Below, piece by piece: positions 7,210 to 14,960 of a DNA stretch of 48,249 nucleotides (position 1 is its first letter; each line of letters begins with the position of its first letter). The notes under the pieces are model-generated. The model ran no database searches. It was not told the DNA's origin and saw only the letters and a program-made list of their open reading frames with translations. This DNA is from an uncultured Pirellulaceae bacterium (lineage in GTDB: Bacteria; Planctomycetota; Planctomycetia; Pirellulales; Pirellulaceae): contig CAKZVF010000152.1 of the NCBI GenBank assembly GCA_937921995.1, positions 1 through 48,249 of the forward strand, in the 5' to 3' direction. The position numbers and the translations under genes are program-made.

Positions 7210-9156
7210 TTACTTAGGCGTAAATCGTTCCAAGACTTTCAGGACCAACGTCGGCGATAGCACCTCTGGCAACATAATGGCTGGACTGTTGGGATAGTCG
7301 GCCGGGTAAATCAAATTCACGGGAATGTTTTTTGAGTCCGTTCGATTGAGTTCGGCAAGGTAAACCTGATTCTCTTTGGTCATGTCAAGCCGGACCAGTT
7401 CAATTCCCAGCTCTTCGATTTTGTCCAGTACGTCTTGTGATGAGAAGACACGCTTCTCGTTTAATTTACACGTAAGTCACCAGTCTGCGGTGTAATCTAC
7501 CCAGATCAATTTTCTGTTTTCAGCCAGCGAATGTTCGATGCGCCCAGGAGCCCAGTCGGTCCAACCGTCCTTAGAAATCAATTGCGGAGCATCGTACTTG
7601 GCAGCGGAGAAACACATCCAAATCCCTGCGCTGGCGATCAGCAGCGGAGTCGCCCACCCCCAAAGGTAACGCTTGCCTCCCTTTACATAGGCTGGGCTGT
7701 ATTTCCCATAAAAGAATGCAGCCAAACCGATCACGCACATCGCCATCAGCAACAGCCCGATGCCGTCGATTCCCGTGATCGCTCCAAACGTTTTTGCAAA
7801 AAATGCCGCTGCGGCGAACAACGTAAATGCCATCAGTTTCTTAAATGTTTCCATCCACGCCCCTGGCTTGGGCAGCATTTTGATCAGCGCCGGAAAGAAC
7901 GACAACACCAAGTAAGGCATCGCAATCCCCAGCCCGAAGATCGTAAATAGAAACAATGCGACAATGGAATCCTGAGCCAGTGTGTACCCCATCGCGGCTC
8001 CGAGAAACGGGCCCGAACAAGGTGTTGCCACCAGAGTCGTAATGATTCCGCTAACGAAGGATCCAGAGTAACCGTGTTTTTGTTCTCCACCACCCACACG
8101 GGTCATAAACAACCCCATTTCAAACACGCCTGCCAGATTCAACCCCATCACAAACAACATGATCACAATCCCGCCAACGAAATAGGCATTGCCCATTTGC
8201 TGGCCCCAGCTGACGTTGTTGCCGAACGCCTTGATGGTCAGGATCGCACCGGCCAACACCCACATGGAAAAGATTAAACCCAGTGCGAATGCGATTCCAT
8301 GAATTCTGATCTTCTTAGGATCGCTGCCGGCCTGTACTGCGAATCCCATTACTTTAAGCCCCAGAACTGGGAAAACGCATGGCATCAAATTCAAAAGCAT
8401 GCCACCGACGAACGCGCCAAACAAGGCCGTCCAGAACGTGCCCGTACCCGTCGAACCATCCAGCCGTTCATATTTGATTTTTGAATTGACATCGTAAAGA
8501 GCTGCCAGATCGGCAAGTTCTTCTGGCGTTTCGGCCGTTCGAATTGCCAGTTTTTCCTCTTCAACAATCGAAAGCACCGATGGGTCAAATCTCTCTTCTG
8601 GTGCTTCGACCATCAGTCCGGCTTCGTAGCCTCCAAACGCGGCCGTCAGTTTAATGGTCTTCGGAGGCCGGCAGCCATCTGCGTTGCAAACCATCCCTTT
8701 GAACGATGCCAGAATTTCAAGATTCGCTGGCTCAACCCCATCGGCCAACACGATCGGCGCCGACCAAGTAACTTGTTCTTCGAATTCTTCCCGTTGCTCA
8801 CCGTTCAGTTCATAGGCATGGGGTTCAACGTCAGGAACAAACGGCCCGACTACTTGGAATTGATCCGAGGCGGGTACTTTGAAACTAGATGGAACTTCGA
8901 CACCGCCATGATTCTGCGAATAGCAGTGATAACCATTGCCCATTACGGCCTGGACATACAGGTTGCCGATGCGAGTCCCTTCCTTGATTTTGAACCGGCT
9001 GGTTACCGTCAAAGGTTTGCCCACCTCTTCCGTCTTACCGAAGACATTCCGCAAGTTGGGAGGCTGAGCGTCAGCGGTAGACGTTCCGAACACGCCAGCG
9101 AGGACAACGACCAGCAAAACGGCCGATCCCGTGACAGTCAGTGGTAATGTTTTCAT
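7210..9156 (-). CDS. dsbD: DsbD-like thiol:disulfide interchange protein, probable selenoprotein (UxxC)
   Basis: Read through an internal TGA at 7479-7477, this is 648 residues with the full DsbD plan. There is a signal peptide (to about residue 30), then an N-terminal DsbD-alpha-like domain with the pair C-NADGC near 180. The membrane domain has the two conserved segments NLMPCVFPVLGLK and ATPCSGPFLGAAMG, which carry its redox cysteines. The C-terminal thioredoxin domain follows. In the family the last domain reads DFTADWCLTCK; here it reads DYTADW-TGA-LTCKLNEK. The 88 codons after TGA carry normal family features (LVRLDMT, cis-proline IPVNLIYP, LPEVLSP) and end at TAA. The family passes electrons from cytosolic thioredoxin to periplasmic partners. 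I infer selenocysteine at the nucleophile position. The alternative is a recent nonsense mutation. Confidence 0.85.
7442..7458 (-). promoter_or_regulatory. Candidate bacterial SECIS hairpin
   Basis: On the transcript, GAGAAG-CGUGU-CUUCUC forms a perfect 6-bp stem with a 5-nt loop. The stem starts 18 nt after the UGA and the loop starts 24 nt after it. The second loop base is G. This fits the published general bacterial SECIS rule as I remember it: loop 16-37 nt after UGA, loop of 3-14 nt, G in the first two loop bases. Coding constraint could also produce a chance hairpin. Confidence 0.6.
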
Positions 9157-9337: not shown

Positions 9338-9802
9338 TTAGGAATTTGGAGCCTTGACGATCTTTTCCTGATAGACGTCTCTCCACTGTAGACACTCGGG
9401 ATTGCCGGTTTCGAAATCGCGGCAAACGTTCGGGCGGTATAAATGGTTTTTACACAGGCGCGTCTCCAAATCCAGCCAGGTGCAGGGGCCGTCGAAGGTG
9501 TCCAACGTGTCTCCGTAATCGGGACGTTGGTACTGAGCGACGTGAGCCAGCCATTGTTGTTTTAGATCCTCGGGCAACTGATGCCAGTGCGATTCGCCAG
9601 GGTGACCAGCCAACAATTCAGCGCGTCGACGCGCCGTAAACGATTTCCCAGATTCAACTTCCAGTTGATCCACTTCGGCAGCGGACAGGGGATCTTTGGG
9701 AGTAATGAAAGCAGGGTATCCCATGTGGAAACAACACACGCCACAGCCCGAACATTCAACAACCGGCAGCGCCGAATTCGATTTTTCTTTTTCTTTTTTC
9801 AT
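9338..9802 (-). CDS. YkgJ-family cysteine-cluster protein
   Basis: A 154-residue cytosolic protein. The N-terminal signature CSGCGVCC (residues 19-26) and later single cysteines in GPCTWLD, RLCKNH and NVCRDFE match the YkgJ family. That family binds zinc or an iron-sulphur cluster and has no firmly established reaction. The start is ATG 9802, and a lysine- and glutamate-rich stretch follows it. It lies on the same strand as the DsbD gene, 181 bp upstream of it. Both are redox or metal proteins, but I cannot show a functional link. Confidence 0.85.
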   Translation of the reverse strand: MKKEKEKSNSALPVVECSGCGVCCFHMGYPAFITPKDPLSAAEVDQLEVESGKSFTARRRAELLAGHPGESHWHQLPEDLKQQWLAHVAQYQRPDYGDTLDTFDGPCTWLDLETRLCKNHLYRPNVCRDFETGNPECLQWRDVYQEKIVKAPNS

Positions 9803-11386: not shown

Positions 11387-13189
11387 CTATCTCAGCACGC
11401 CTAAGTAAAAACTGAAGACTCTTTCTTCGTCGAACTCCGATGATGAAACGGGGAACGCGAAGTCAAACGCCAGCGGAGCACCGATTCCAGCGGCGGGCAT
11501 GTGAACGCGAAATCCGAAACCGGGGGCGACGCGAAAGTTTTCCGAATTGATCTCAACGTCTTGTTCGACCGTTCCAAAGTCACAAAACAAAACGCCTTTG
11601 ACCATGTCGTCGGCGGTAACGGGAAACATGTACTCCAGCGTGTTCAGCCATTGGAACCGTCCACCGACGCGGATGCGTTCCGTTCCACCTTCACTGGGGG
11701 ATGCACCGCGGAAATCGAAACCACGGATGGTTGAAAAACCTCCTGCAAAATAGTTTTCGTATAGCGGCGTGTCGCTGCCGGAAACGCCCAACTTACTACC
11801 GAAGCTGATCGTGTGCCGTCCGGATCGGTCAGGACGTTGATACATCAAGCGATAACGGCGATATTCAAGATCGCCGCGCGAGTAATCAAAATCACCAAAC
11901 GCTTGACTGTATGTGGCCGATAGATAACTACCCTCGGTAGGCAAGAAAGGATGGTCGCGTGTGTCTCGAATTAATCCTACGTTGGCGACGTTGAGATTGC
12001 TTTTACCGATGTTGTCACTAAGTGTGGGAGAAAGAGCGATGTCAGACGCTTCGGCATCAACTTCCACACGTTCAGTTCTCACACCGGCGCTGATCGACAG
12101 GTCCGGTGAGAGTCTGCGTCCGAAGTTAAACCTGCCACCGAAACGGTTTTCATCATAGTCCAAATAGCGCCGGTCGAAGTAATAACCGCTTGCGCTAAAG
12201 GAGAAGTCTGTGTTAAGGAAATAGGGTTCGGTGAAGCTGACCAGATAACGTTGGATGTCCTGACCCGGCACTAATTCCAATCGAAACTGCTGCCCTGCTC
12301 CGCGAAACGCGGTGCCGTCAAGAATGTCGCCGAAACTGCGCGGCACTCGGGTGATGTCAAAGTCTTTCTCATCGATTGTGAATTGGCCAACGATACCGTT
12401 GTCCGAGTTATAGGCTCCACCGATATTGATACGCCCGGTATTCGTTTGCGAAATCGTGACATCCAGATCAGCAAAATCGGCGGCCGGATAGTAAGGAATC
12501 GACGCGTTACCGCCGCGTTCAAAAGGTTGAACCAATGAATTCAGCGTGTTGGGAGAACCGATATCGGGTGACGGTAGGCCGTTGCCGGGAATAAATTGTC
12601 GACCCGGCGTGTTCAGTTCAGGATACTGGTACGCGGTTTGTTGAACGTTATTGCCACCGGTATTGGCTGCGGCTGGTATCTGAGCGGCGGTGTTGTTGCT
12701 GGGAACGGCAGGTTGGTTGAAAACCGCGTTGCCAACTTGGCCCGGTTGAGTGTTGCTTTGGACTGGTTGAGCGTTCTGCGGGGCACCGTTTGGGCGGTTG
12801 CCGTACCAAAATGCATTGTCGGGGCTTTGTCCGCGGTAGATGTTTTGTTGAGATACGTTTTGGGGATCGGGCCGATAGGCAACCGTTGTGATTTCCTTCT
12901 CACGACCGACGTTTGACAGGGTTTGAGATTCTTTATCGGTTTGAACTGATTGCTGGGACTGATACTTAAGTTGCATCGGAGTCGGGATATCGCCTGCCTT
13001 GGGCGGGGCCACGATAGGACGTGACGAATACATCGAACCCAATCTGCCATTTGCGCATCCGGTTGATCCGACCAACAACACCATCAGTGCTGCGAAACCA
13101 ATCCATTTTCTCAGTTCGGAAAATGAATTGCCGATCTTGAGGTTGTGAGTGTTGAGTTGCATAGTTCGATGTGGGGGAAGTTTCGTCAA
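11387..13189 (-). CDS. Omp85/BamA-type outer-membrane beta-barrel protein without POTRA domains
   Basis: A 600-residue protein. A hydrophobic N-terminus ends in LVGSTGC, a possible lipoprotein signal. A Q-, N- and P-rich linker runs from about residue 40 to 220. The C-terminal 370 residues are a D15/Omp85 surface-antigen barrel: TEPYFLNTDFSFSASGYYFD, RDTRDHPFLPTEGSYLSA, and the signature TIRGFDFRG typical of the loop 6 VRGF motif. POTRA domains are absent; they are encoded by the next gene upstream (13275-14960). Together they probably make the outer-membrane protein insertion machine. The last residue is Arg rather than the common terminal aromatic. The gene starts 85 bp after the POTRA gene ends, so co-transcription is likely. 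Confidence 0.88.
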   Translation of the reverse strand: MTKLPPHRTMQLNTHNLKIGNSFSELRKWIGFAALMVLLVGSTGCANGRLGSMYSSRPIVAPPKAGDIPTPMQLKYQSQQSVQTDKESQTLSNVGREKEITTVAYRPDPQNVSQQNIYRGQSPDNAFWYGNRPNGAPQNAQPVQSNTQPGQVGNAVFNQPAVPSNNTAAQIPAAANTGGNNVQQTAYQYPELNTPGRQFIPGNGLPSPDIGSPNTLNSLVQPFERGGNASIPYYPAADFADLDVTISQTNTGRINIGGAYNSDNGIVGQFTIDEKDFDITRVPRSFGDILDGTAFRGAGQQFRLELVPGQDIQRYLVSFTEPYFLNTDFSFSASGYYFDRRYLDYDENRFGGRFNFGRRLSPDLSISAGVRTERVEVDAEASDIALSPTLSDNIGKSNLNVANVGLIRDTRDHPFLPTEGSYLSATYSQAFGDFDYSRGDLEYRRYRLMYQRPDRSGRHTISFGSKLGVSGSDTPLYENYFAGGFSTIRGFDFRGASPSEGGTERIRVGGRFQWLNTLEYMFPVTADDMVKGVLFCDFGTVEQDVEINSENFRVAPGFGFRVHMPAAGIGAPLAFDFAFPVSSSEFDEERVFSFYLGVLR

Positions 13190-13274
13190 TATTCAGTTCG
13201 ATTTCAAAACAGTTCGATCTTCTGGTCGGTGCGTGATGTGCTGGTGCTTCAGCCACAGTCACGTTGATGTTGAG

Positions 13275-14960
13275 TTACCGGAATCCACTTCCGCCTGACC
13301 GTGTTCCGCTTCCACCTGAACCTCGGTTAGCACTACGCCTTGGTGGACCACCGATCCCATCAGCCCCGTCACCGCCGGCCATCTGTTCCAGTTTTTTAAG
13401 TTCCGGTGGTTTGACGACAATCGTTGGCCCCGATGCGGCCCCTGGTTGACCCGAAGCAAAAATCTGAGATCCCGACAGCTTGGTTTTGCTTTTTTCAATC
13501 TGGCGGACGTCAATCAAATCACCCGGCTTCAGCGTCATCCGGTTGAGCACGACTTGGCGTTTGGTGACAGAGTTGCCGCCTTCGTAATGAACGTTAATCT
13601 GTCCAACACGATACTGTTTTCCTTCTTTGATTTTGTAGACCAGGTCCAACATGCCGGGTTCTTCCAGAAAACGAGTCTCGACCGCAACGTTGGAGAAGAC
13701 GTAGCCTTGGCTGCCGTACAGATCACGCACCTCGGTCAAATCCTCGTTCAGCTGCGTCGCATCGAAGACTGGCATTTCTCCGCTGGGGTTTAGCTGCAGC
13801 AATTTTTTCAGTTCAGTTTCGTCGTAAGACTTATTGCCCATGAATTTGACGTCGCGCACTTTATATCGCGGTCCTTCGTTGACAATGAATCGAACATTCA
13901 ACCAACGACCGTCATTGCTTTCGCTGATTTCGCGTCCAACCTGAGCGTTAAAATAGCCCAACGATCGGTAGTACTCGGTGACGCGATCAACGTCTTGATC
14001 GATCAGAGTACGCTGAGCCAACCCTCCGAAGACCTTGAAGTAGCCGGGTTTCGATTTTACGATGTGGCGTAGACGGGCTTCGGTTGCAATCGTGTTTCCC
14101 TCGAAGTTGACTTTCCAGATCCGCTGTTGCTGATCTTCGTGGATCAGAAACGTAACCTTGGAATCATCGTTATCGTTGCCGTCAAGAACTTCGACCTGCG
14201 TGCGCGGGTAACCCTTTTCGCGATAGAATTCTTCGATCTTAGTCTTCGCGGTGCGAATTTGGTGAACGTCCAGAGGGCTTCCGTTCTCCAGTCCCGTTTG
14301 TTTTGATAGCGTCCGGTCCGAGATTCCTCGATTGCCAATGTATTCCACTTTGGTCAGTCGATTGCGTTCGATGACTTCGATTCGAATGACGACGCCATCG
14401 GGTTGACGGTCCACATAAGGGCCTTTGACCCGCGCGATTTCCGGCATCCTCCAGAGCGCGTTGACGTCTTGTTGAAGTTTGTCGGGATCAAAGTATCGAC
14501 CCGGACGCGTGCGAATGTTGCGCGTTAGATGATGGGTGGGTAGCGTTTGGTTACCGGTGATCTGTACGTCTTTGATGATGTCCGGCCGCGCTTCGGGGTT
14601 ACTATCTGCGATTTGTTGAAAGTCAGGCAAGATATCCGATTCTTCGCGCTGGACTCGGCCGCCGGCGGGTTCGGGGCCTGTGCTGCCGGGCAGACCACCG
14701 GTGAGCGCGGGGTTCTGAAACCGTACATTCTGAAGCATTTCTTCGTCCAGCACTTGCGGTGGAATCGGCAACGCGGAATCCTGCCACGATTGTCCCATCT
14801 GACAGCCGGTCAGCAGCGTCAGCGTGAACAGGGTTAAAATTGCGAAGCGATTCGGAGCGGTTCCGAACGTACGACGGCAAGGGACGCGCGGTCCGCAAGT
14901 GTGATGTGCGAGTCGGTCAGCGCATGAGTTATTTGGCGATTTTTGCAACTTTTGGTCCAT
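13275..14960 (-). CDS. POTRA-repeat lipoprotein (BamA N-terminal half)
   Basis: A 561-residue protein. A long charged N-terminus leads into a hydrophobic stretch and a good lipobox, TLLTGC, near residue 52. Successive POTRA repeats begin at about DVQITGNQTL, KVEYIGNRGI, KVNFEGNTIA and VRDVKFMGNKSY. A fifth, possibly incomplete, begins at INVHYEGGNS. The protein then ends in a proline-, glycine- and arginine-rich tail instead of a barrel. The barrel is the product of the next gene (11387-13189). By family knowledge POTRA domains receive unfolded outer-membrane proteins in the periplasm. Since both halves have their own signal peptide, this is a true split and not a frameshift. Confidence 0.88.
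   Translation of the reverse strand: MDQKLQKSPNNSCADRLAHHTCGPRVPCRRTFGTAPNRFAILTLFTLTLLTGCQMGQSWQDSALPIPPQVLDEEMLQNVRFQNPALTGGLPGSTGPEPAGGRVQREESDILPDFQQIADSNPEARPDIIKDVQITGNQTLPTHHLTRNIRTRPGRYFDPDKLQQDVNALWRMPEIARVKGPYVDRQPDGVVIRIEVIERNRLTKVEYIGNRGISDRTLSKQTGLENGSPLDVHQIRTAKTKIEEFYREKGYPRTQVEVLDGNDNDDSKVTFLIHEDQQQRIWKVNFEGNTIATEARLRHIVKSKPGYFKVFGGLAQRTLIDQDVDRVTEYYRSLGYFNAQVGREISESNDGRWLNVRFIVNEGPRYKVRDVKFMGNKSYDETELKKLLQLNPSGEMPVFDATQLNEDLTEVRDLYGSQGYVFSNVAVETRFLEEPGMLDLVYKIKEGKQYRVGQINVHYEGGNSVTKRQVVLNRMTLKPGDLIDVRQIEKSKTKLSGSQIFASGQPGAASGPTIVVKPPELKKLEQMAGGDGADGIGGPPRRSANRGSGGSGTRSGGSGFR

Follow-up and report, generated by a model that had tools for sequence, protein, structure and literature searches.

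The locus considered here raises the question of whether a TGA codon lying in frame within a DsbD-type thiol:disulfide reductase gene terminates the protein, marks a decaying gene, or is read as selenocysteine (Sec). The gene lies in a stretch of 48,249 nucleotides (hereinafter the window) from a contig of an uncultured Pirellulaceae bacterium. An earlier sequence-only reading had proposed that it encodes a probable selenoprotein, with the TGA falling exactly on the first residue of a thioredoxin CxxC motif, and had suggested searching the genome for the sel genes and aligning DsbD homologues at this residue. Both checks were run and are described below.

The reading frame and its domains

Translation of 9156-7210 on the minus strand confirms that the frame continues through the TGA at 7479-7477 into 88 further codons before a TAA (Table 1). 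The TGA, at residue 560 in the context DYTADW-TGA-LTCKLNEKRVFS, is the only one in this frame, and the list of open reading frames (ORFs) of the window accordingly gives the gene as a 559-residue ORF cut at that codon. Across the six frames of the window, there are six TGAs preceded by at least 100 and followed by at least 60 open codons; the one at residue 560 has by far the longest preceding frame of these (569 codons vs. 100 to 233 for the others), which argues that it is more than a chance occurrence. TGA is otherwise an ordinary stop in the window, as the sequence-only reading had stated: it ends seven of the 25 long ORFs checked, one of the seven being the present gene cut at its TGA, and hence six of the 24 others.

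Table 1. Features of the DsbD-type gene and its proposed selenocysteine codon, in positions of the window.
Feature	Position	Strand	Remarks
DsbD-type reductase gene	7210..9156	minus	648 residues if TGA is Sec; stop TAA at 7212-7210
N-terminal alpha-type domain, residues 60-168	8653..8979	minus	DsbD_N match below gathering score
C157, N-terminal domain Cys pair	8688-8686	minus	at least 90% conserved in alignment A1
C162, N-terminal domain Cys pair	8673-8671	minus	at least 90% conserved in alignment A1
Membrane domain DsbD_TM, residues 242-454	7795..8433	minus	profile match
C260, membrane domain	8379-8377	minus	invariant in 26 sequences (A1)
C380, membrane domain	8019-8017	minus	invariant in 26 sequences (A1)
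Gamma domain, thioredoxin fold	7303..7563	minus	Thioredoxin_7 match, residues 532-618
In-frame TGA, residue 560, proposed selenocysteine	7477..7479	minus	first Cys of gamma CxxC in PDB matches
C563, second residue of UxxC pair	7468..7470	minus	invariant in A1, by construction
Proposed bacterial SECIS hairpin, GAGAAG-CGUGU-CUUCUC	7442..7458	minus	starts 18 nt after UGA; family support
P612, invariant proline of gamma domain	7323-7321	minus	cis-proline position (role inferred)

The read-through protein matches the Thioredoxin_7 profile with 36.1 bits (gathering score 27), while the frame cut at the TGA shows no match to it up to E 1; hence, a stop after DYTADW costs the protein its catalytic domain. 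The 88-codon tail on its own reaches 15.1 bits, which is sub-threshold. In the part downstream of the TGA, the sequence-only reading had recognized family features (a cis-proline in IPVNLIYP, and LPEVLSP); this part contributes to the Thioredoxin_7 match on read-through and includes the invariant P612. Upstream, the membrane domain is recovered by DsbD_TM (52.8 bits vs. 27.1), and the N-terminal domain gives a DsbD_N score of 20.9 bits, under the gathering score of 25. The redox positions of the DsbD relay are all present, as the pairs C157/C162 and C260/C380 and as residue 560 with C563. The placement in the DsbD superfamily thus follows from a DsbD_TM domain with two cysteines, an N-terminal domain with a cysteine pair and a C-terminal thioredoxin-fold domain with U560-C563.

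In an alignment of 26 homologues (A1), 25 rows were found by a pattern demanding residues 560 and 563, so that residues 556-560 and 563 are invariant in it by construction. Residue 560 aligns with the first cysteine of the active-site pair in the solved DsbD gamma domains of the PDB (C461 in E. coli DsbD), and the claim that the TGA occupies the first position of the CxxC thus stands. A structure model built from A1 (mean pLDDT 79.5, pTM 0.64) has a C-terminal thioredoxin fold with residue 560 directly ahead of the helix 561-570. When this model was searched with Foldseek, it matched gamma domains of DsbD, N-terminal domains of both ScsB and DsbD, and CcdA; one of these matches reached E <=0.001.

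The genes adjoining the reductase offered no functional link. Directly upstream on the same strand is an ORF with a CxxCxxCC domain (window 9338-9802, minus), and the opposite flank of the reductase holds an Lhr-type helicase and an ORF that matches a phosphoesterase weakly. Separately, an outer-membrane assembly protein appears to be split into two adjacent genes at 11387-14960 on the minus strand: one ORF (13275-14960) has POTRA domains only, and the other (11387-13189) has the Omp85 barrel. The two differ in frame, and each has a lipobox-like N-terminus by reading.

Residue 560 among homologues

Searches of 197 genomes of relatives, including the window's own, found a match to the window protein in 190. 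Among the matches listed, there is either no internal stop or exactly one TGA, and never a TAA or TAG. A TGA lies inside 37 of these listed matches, from 36 genomes, and in all 37 it is at residue 560. The remaining 15 of the 52 loci have a cysteine there in 14 cases, the exception being L032 (genome G021), which blastp leaves unaligned at that residue and which has a TGA at the corresponding site in another frame. This gene thus seems to have a frame break in between. When the site was tested in 189 loci, it was TGA in 119, Cys in 54 and not readable in 16. These counts reflect how the loci were chosen: 81 of the 119 TGA loci were selected by a TGA-bearing pattern, and position played no part in the choice of the remaining 38; further, 22 loci (L045-L066) were taken because a TGA was listed and 40 (L167-L206) because no stop was listed, so that for these two sets only the position of the TGA was open beforehand. 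The proposed alignment of DsbD homologues, thus, returns TGA or Cys at residue 560.

The pattern used for the wider search, [F/Y]TADW-TGA-xxC[K/Q], was scanned over genomes of 84,980 species and yielded 97 stretches, of which 81 scored as DsbD-like with the TGA at the residue-560 site. These belong to Planctomycetota (46), Verrucomicrobiota (31) and Abditibacteriota (1), with three unassigned. One further stretch with ambiguous bases (L162) proved DsbD-like on recheck, making 82 of 97 the better count; the DsbD counts given here leave out all 16 stretches first scored as non-DsbD-like, L162 among them. The other 15 were rejected as DsbD and include short thioredoxin-like frames from Bacillota and Planctomycetota as well as apparent chance hits. 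As a control, the motif was searched for in a sample of 294 genomes of the phylum, where it occurs with TGA at 11 places in nine genomes and with TAA or TAG at none. DsbD genes account for four of the 11 places, and two of these four belong to the genome of the window; the remaining seven are other frames, most of which resemble the thioredoxin domain weakly. On these counts, TGA has a special standing at this motif, for the most part in proteins other than DsbD; with only four of the 11 places in DsbD genes, it is a weaker control that concerns the motif more than DsbD.

Several of the frames outside DsbD are candidates in their own right. Five from Bacillota (L077, L098, L118, L136 and L141; Fictibacillus, Alteribacillus, Salinibacillus and one bin) have FTADW-TGA-PxC[K/Q] in a short thioredoxin-like frame that stays open for 72-73 codons after the TGA, and might be small Sec thioredoxins. 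Four from planctomycetes (L210, L212, L099 and L156) have VHFTADW or LHFTADW-TGA-GACK with about 260 codons open beyond the TGA, resemble the thioredoxin domain of DsbD weakly, and may represent another thioredoxin-fold selenoprotein. Six more, mostly from planctomycetes (L207, L214, L215, L081, L103 and L126), have FTADW-TGA-xAC[K/Q] followed by about 67 codons and are again possible small Sec thioredoxins. In the latter two sets, some members may be one genome represented in two collections.

A quick midpoint-rooted tree was computed for 134 of 138 proteins (80 Sec and 54 Cys forms, a ratio that is not a frequency, as the sequences were selected by TGA and by Cys); some of its branches are very long. 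The window gene falls in a clade of 44 members, 41 with Sec and three with Cys, that is common to Planctomycetota and Verrucomicrobiota. The tree requires at least five changes between Sec and Cys, at least three of which are dictated by well-supported branches. The nearest neighbor of the window gene is a Cys form (L016, genome G074) whose genome still has selA. Together with L017 and L021, it is nested in the Sec clade, and all three genomes retain selA. We suggest that these are natural Sec-to-Cys replacements; their presence indicates that Sec is not indispensable. The simplest reading of this midpoint-rooted quick tree would be that the clade was ancestrally Sec-containing and that Cys was regained at least twice. 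The genome of the window encodes a second, divergent DsbD-type gene (L045; G000:C85:12475-14022, minus), whose thioredoxin CxxC likewise begins with a TGA and which belongs to the other large group of the tree. This second gene, the recurrence in two phyla and the SECIS-type hairpin described below extend beyond what had been noted from the window.

The codons beyond the TGA speak to its fate. In 13 close pairs of homologues that share no member, some of them phylogenetically dependent, synonymous and nonsynonymous differences number 304:93 over at most 80 codons following the TGA and 350:127 in the 80 codons before it. The window gene is in none of these pairs, being without a close relative in the set. 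By these counts, purifying selection in the family is as strong after the TGA as before it.

These observations bear on the alternative that survives best, namely that termination at the UGA is the main outcome and yields a protein that has the alpha and membrane domains but lacks gamma, Sec read-through furnishing a selenium-dependent minority product. The decoding of Sec competes with termination, and both the alpha-type and membrane domains lie wholly within the frame before the UGA. Against this, the equal selection after the UGA and the 14 aligned Cys homologues that have their gamma domain in one frame lead us to consider it improbable, though still deserving of more weight than the remaining alternatives. 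One of these is a recent nonsense mutation, with the TGA as damage and the tail as a dying remnant. In its favor are the unbroken frame of the first 559 codons and the frequent occurrence of Cys homologues, but the TGA sits at residue 560 in all 37 of the listed TGA matches, none of which has an internal TAA or TAG; the tail evolves under the selection just described, as judged from pairs that do not include the window gene; and the hairpin is selected in TGA genes only. We, therefore, reject a pseudogene as very unlikely, in agreement with the sequence-only reading, which had seen no further damage.

Selenocysteine machinery and a SECIS-type hairpin

The host genome, a draft of 329 contigs and 4.82 Mb with a completeness of 77% and a contamination of 5.35%, encodes the machinery for making selenoproteins. 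Profile searches recover selA (585 bits, cut-off 268), selB (361 bits, cut-off 242) and selD (273 bits, cut-off 125), all over curated cut-offs, and a tRNA-Sec (selC) scoring 63 against a gathering score of 47, which ARAGORN calls as SeC with the anticodon tca. In this fragmented draft, the sel genes are on contigs other than that of the window. As a check on contamination of these contigs, selA was counted in the genus, where it is over the cut-off in 22 of 28 genomes. Among the relatives, it is so in 31 of the 36 genomes with a TGA homologue among the matches listed, as compared to 82 of the 161 others (Fisher p 6e-5, kinship ignored). Of the five TGA genomes without selA over the cut-off, G003, G018 and G092 have selB and tRNA-Sec, G002 has a tRNA-Sec, and G023, which is 71% complete, has only a selA fragment. 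Conversely, 82 of the 113 genomes with selA have no TGA homologue among the matches listed.

Bacterial SECIS elements are hairpins positioned shortly after the UGA with G/U in the apical loop. Taken alone, the hairpin of the window gene is not significant, with 12% of synonymous shuffles being as stable; the 63-nt fold from its TGA shows no unusual stability (z +0.82), and Rfam at gathering thresholds gives no match anywhere in the window. The case was, therefore, rebuilt from the family. From the 119 TGA-bearing (hereinafter Sec) genes, 84 were kept after dropping rows with identical first 60 nt, less than 60 nt or N (26 from relatives and 58 from the pattern scan), while all 54 Cys genes were kept. 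The loop of the best hairpin falls at nt 22-26 after the UGA in 81 of the 84 distinct Sec genes; a well-placed hairpin is missing in the other three. Among these 81 hairpins, the first paired base is mostly 17 or 18 nt after the UGA (68), the stems span 4-9 bp, with 6 or 7 in 70, and the loops 3-6 nt. A GU is found in the loop of every one of the 81, while a loop in this position occurs in six of the 54 Cys genes, in each case lacking GU. A GGUC loop is common, occurring in 17 of the 84 Sec genes, and is also that of the E. coli formate dehydrogenase SECIS.

Against synonymous shuffles, the region from +12 to +42 has a mean z of -2.15 in the 84 Sec genes vs. -0.01 in the 54 Cys genes (Mann-Whitney p 5e-18, kinship ignored), and the 30 nt that follow are no more stable than expected in either (+0.36 and -0.21, respectively). 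In L016, L017 and L021, the Cys forms from within the Sec clade, the hairpin is weaker or misplaced. Compensatory changes point in the same direction: the largest register class (36 genes) has 23 cells in which both partners of a pair have changed, as compared to at most seven in slid controls, and two smaller classes have two (slid at most two) and four (slid at most two). As the register was chosen per sequence in this covariation analysis, the share of paired cells is inflated, and the synonymous-shuffle test is the fair one. A hairpin with the placement and loop expected of a bacterial SECIS is thus present at the level of the family, with the window copy by itself remaining short of significance.

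The presence of selA, selB, selC and selD, along with a SECIS-type hairpin, also disfavors the reading of the UGA as a standard amino acid, be it Trp or another near-cognate, or a lineage-specific code in which UGA is sense. Homologues have Cys or UGA at the site, and UGA closes six of the 24 other long ORFs checked in the window; we, therefore, give this possibility hardly more credence than none and reject an alternative code. An error of sequencing or assembly, by which TGC or TGT became TGA, is the least probable explanation of all and is likewise rejected, for although the window comes from a fragmented draft, the same TGA recurs in many other assemblies, among them that of the named strain Persicirhabdus sediminis KCTC 22039 and a 7.9 Mb chromosome (CP036526.1) whose title calls it complete. 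The sel genes, the homologues with TGA or Cys and the hairpin selected only in TGA forms instead support the original proposal of a selenoprotein.

Known relatives, proposed function and meaning

The closest known architecture is that of E. coli-type DsbD (NF001419; PDB 1uc7, 2fwf, 1vrs, 6dps), with an identical order of alpha-type, membrane and gamma domains, a redox pair in each, and a thioredoxin fold whose active-site residue lies ahead of a helix, as in the window protein. They differ in that the window protein has Sec for the first Cys of the CxxC and a diverged N-terminal domain; its NF001419 score of 116.8 bits does not reach the cut-off of 330. The best Foldseek match is the N-terminal periplasmic domain of ScsB (PDB 6c29; E 2.3e-4), a comparison that covers this domain. 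TsoB, a rhodanese/DsbD fusion-like selenoprotein (NF045694), shares the DsbD-like part: its profile matches residues 233-613 with 139.1 bits, short of a cut-off of 805 that none of the eight other homologues scored reaches either. The window protein has no Pfam match to a rhodanese-like domain at E 0.001, and where TsoB has two Sec residues in UxxxxU, according to the accessible text of a 2026 review of prokaryotic selenoproteins (PMC13188914), it has a single UxxC.

A Sec-containing "thiol:disulfide interchange protein" with UxxC, filed under PF13098 (Thioredoxin_2), figures in the accessible text of PMC13188914 and PMC9312934 and is listed by name for Geobacter and Syntrophus in that of PMC1794560. 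It resembles the window protein in having UxxC in a thioredoxin-like domain and in its name, the comparison being by description only. The window gamma domain matches Thioredoxin_7 instead, with Thioredoxin_2 matching three relatives only below the gathering score; the two are possibly the same family. In its accessible text, the review names DsbD once, for TsoB, and has neither PF02683 nor PF13899, and that of the Sargasso Sea selenoproteome paper (PMC1088965) lacks the term DsbD. Selenoproteins as such are already known in planctomycetes (PMC4807772), and the supplementary tables of that paper give candidates from two of them. No DsbD with a UxxC thioredoxin domain was found in the open-licence literature searched, as represented for PMC4807772 by the text outside its candidate tables. 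The family is, apparently, an undescribed and widespread Sec form of a known enzyme class, the DsbD superfamily.

On the computed evidence (the read-through homology, the Cys/TGA positions, the Sec machinery, and the family-level selection on the hairpin and on the codons after the UGA), we hold it to be very probable that the gene encodes a full-length DsbD-superfamily reductase with Sec in the UxxC of its gamma domain, the UGA being decoded by SelB and tRNA-Sec with the assistance of the hairpin. Sec insertion, membrane topology, the direction of electron flow and the clients are what we infer. In the DsbD relay, the membrane Cys pair receives electrons from cytoplasmic thioredoxin and hands them on via gamma and alpha to periplasmic clients. 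Sec is more acidic than Cys and is both a better nucleophile and a better leaving group. By analogy with E. coli DsbD, we posit that SelB and tRNA-Sec would decode the UGA as Sec, aided by the hairpin 18 nt downstream; that electrons from cytoplasmic thioredoxin would reduce C260/C380; that this pair would in turn reduce a Sec560-Cys563 selenenylsulfide; that Sec560, as the attacking nucleophile, would reduce C157-C162 of the alpha domain; and that the latter would reduce periplasmic client proteins. The accessible text of PMC4307334 covers the role of DsbC and DsbD. Given its acidity and its nucleophile and leaving-group properties, Sec could speed up the steps at the gamma domain or confer resistance to irreversible oxidation; our search of the open-licence literature for the pKa of the gamma-domain Cys found no paper.

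A more speculative extension, which we rate as rather unlikely, is that many Planctomycetota and Verrucomicrobiota route periplasmic reducing power through a selenium-dependent membrane hub, represented here by two divergent paralogues. As the membrane and alpha domains precede the UGA, the selenium supply would then set the amount of complete reductase and thereby tune periplasmic thiol reduction.

If the Sec reading is true, the bacterial selenoproteome gains a widespread Sec-containing family, and selenium sits in a transmembrane electron conduit in which one catalytic domain may serve many periplasmic proteins. As the standard reading stops at UGA, the lineages concerned would be annotated with a DsbD minus its thioredoxin domain. 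The Sec/Cys pairs among relatives, such as L015 beside L016, or L017 and L021 in the Sec clade, make the retention of Sec testable within one enzyme, and such forms address the old question of why bacteria keep Sec.
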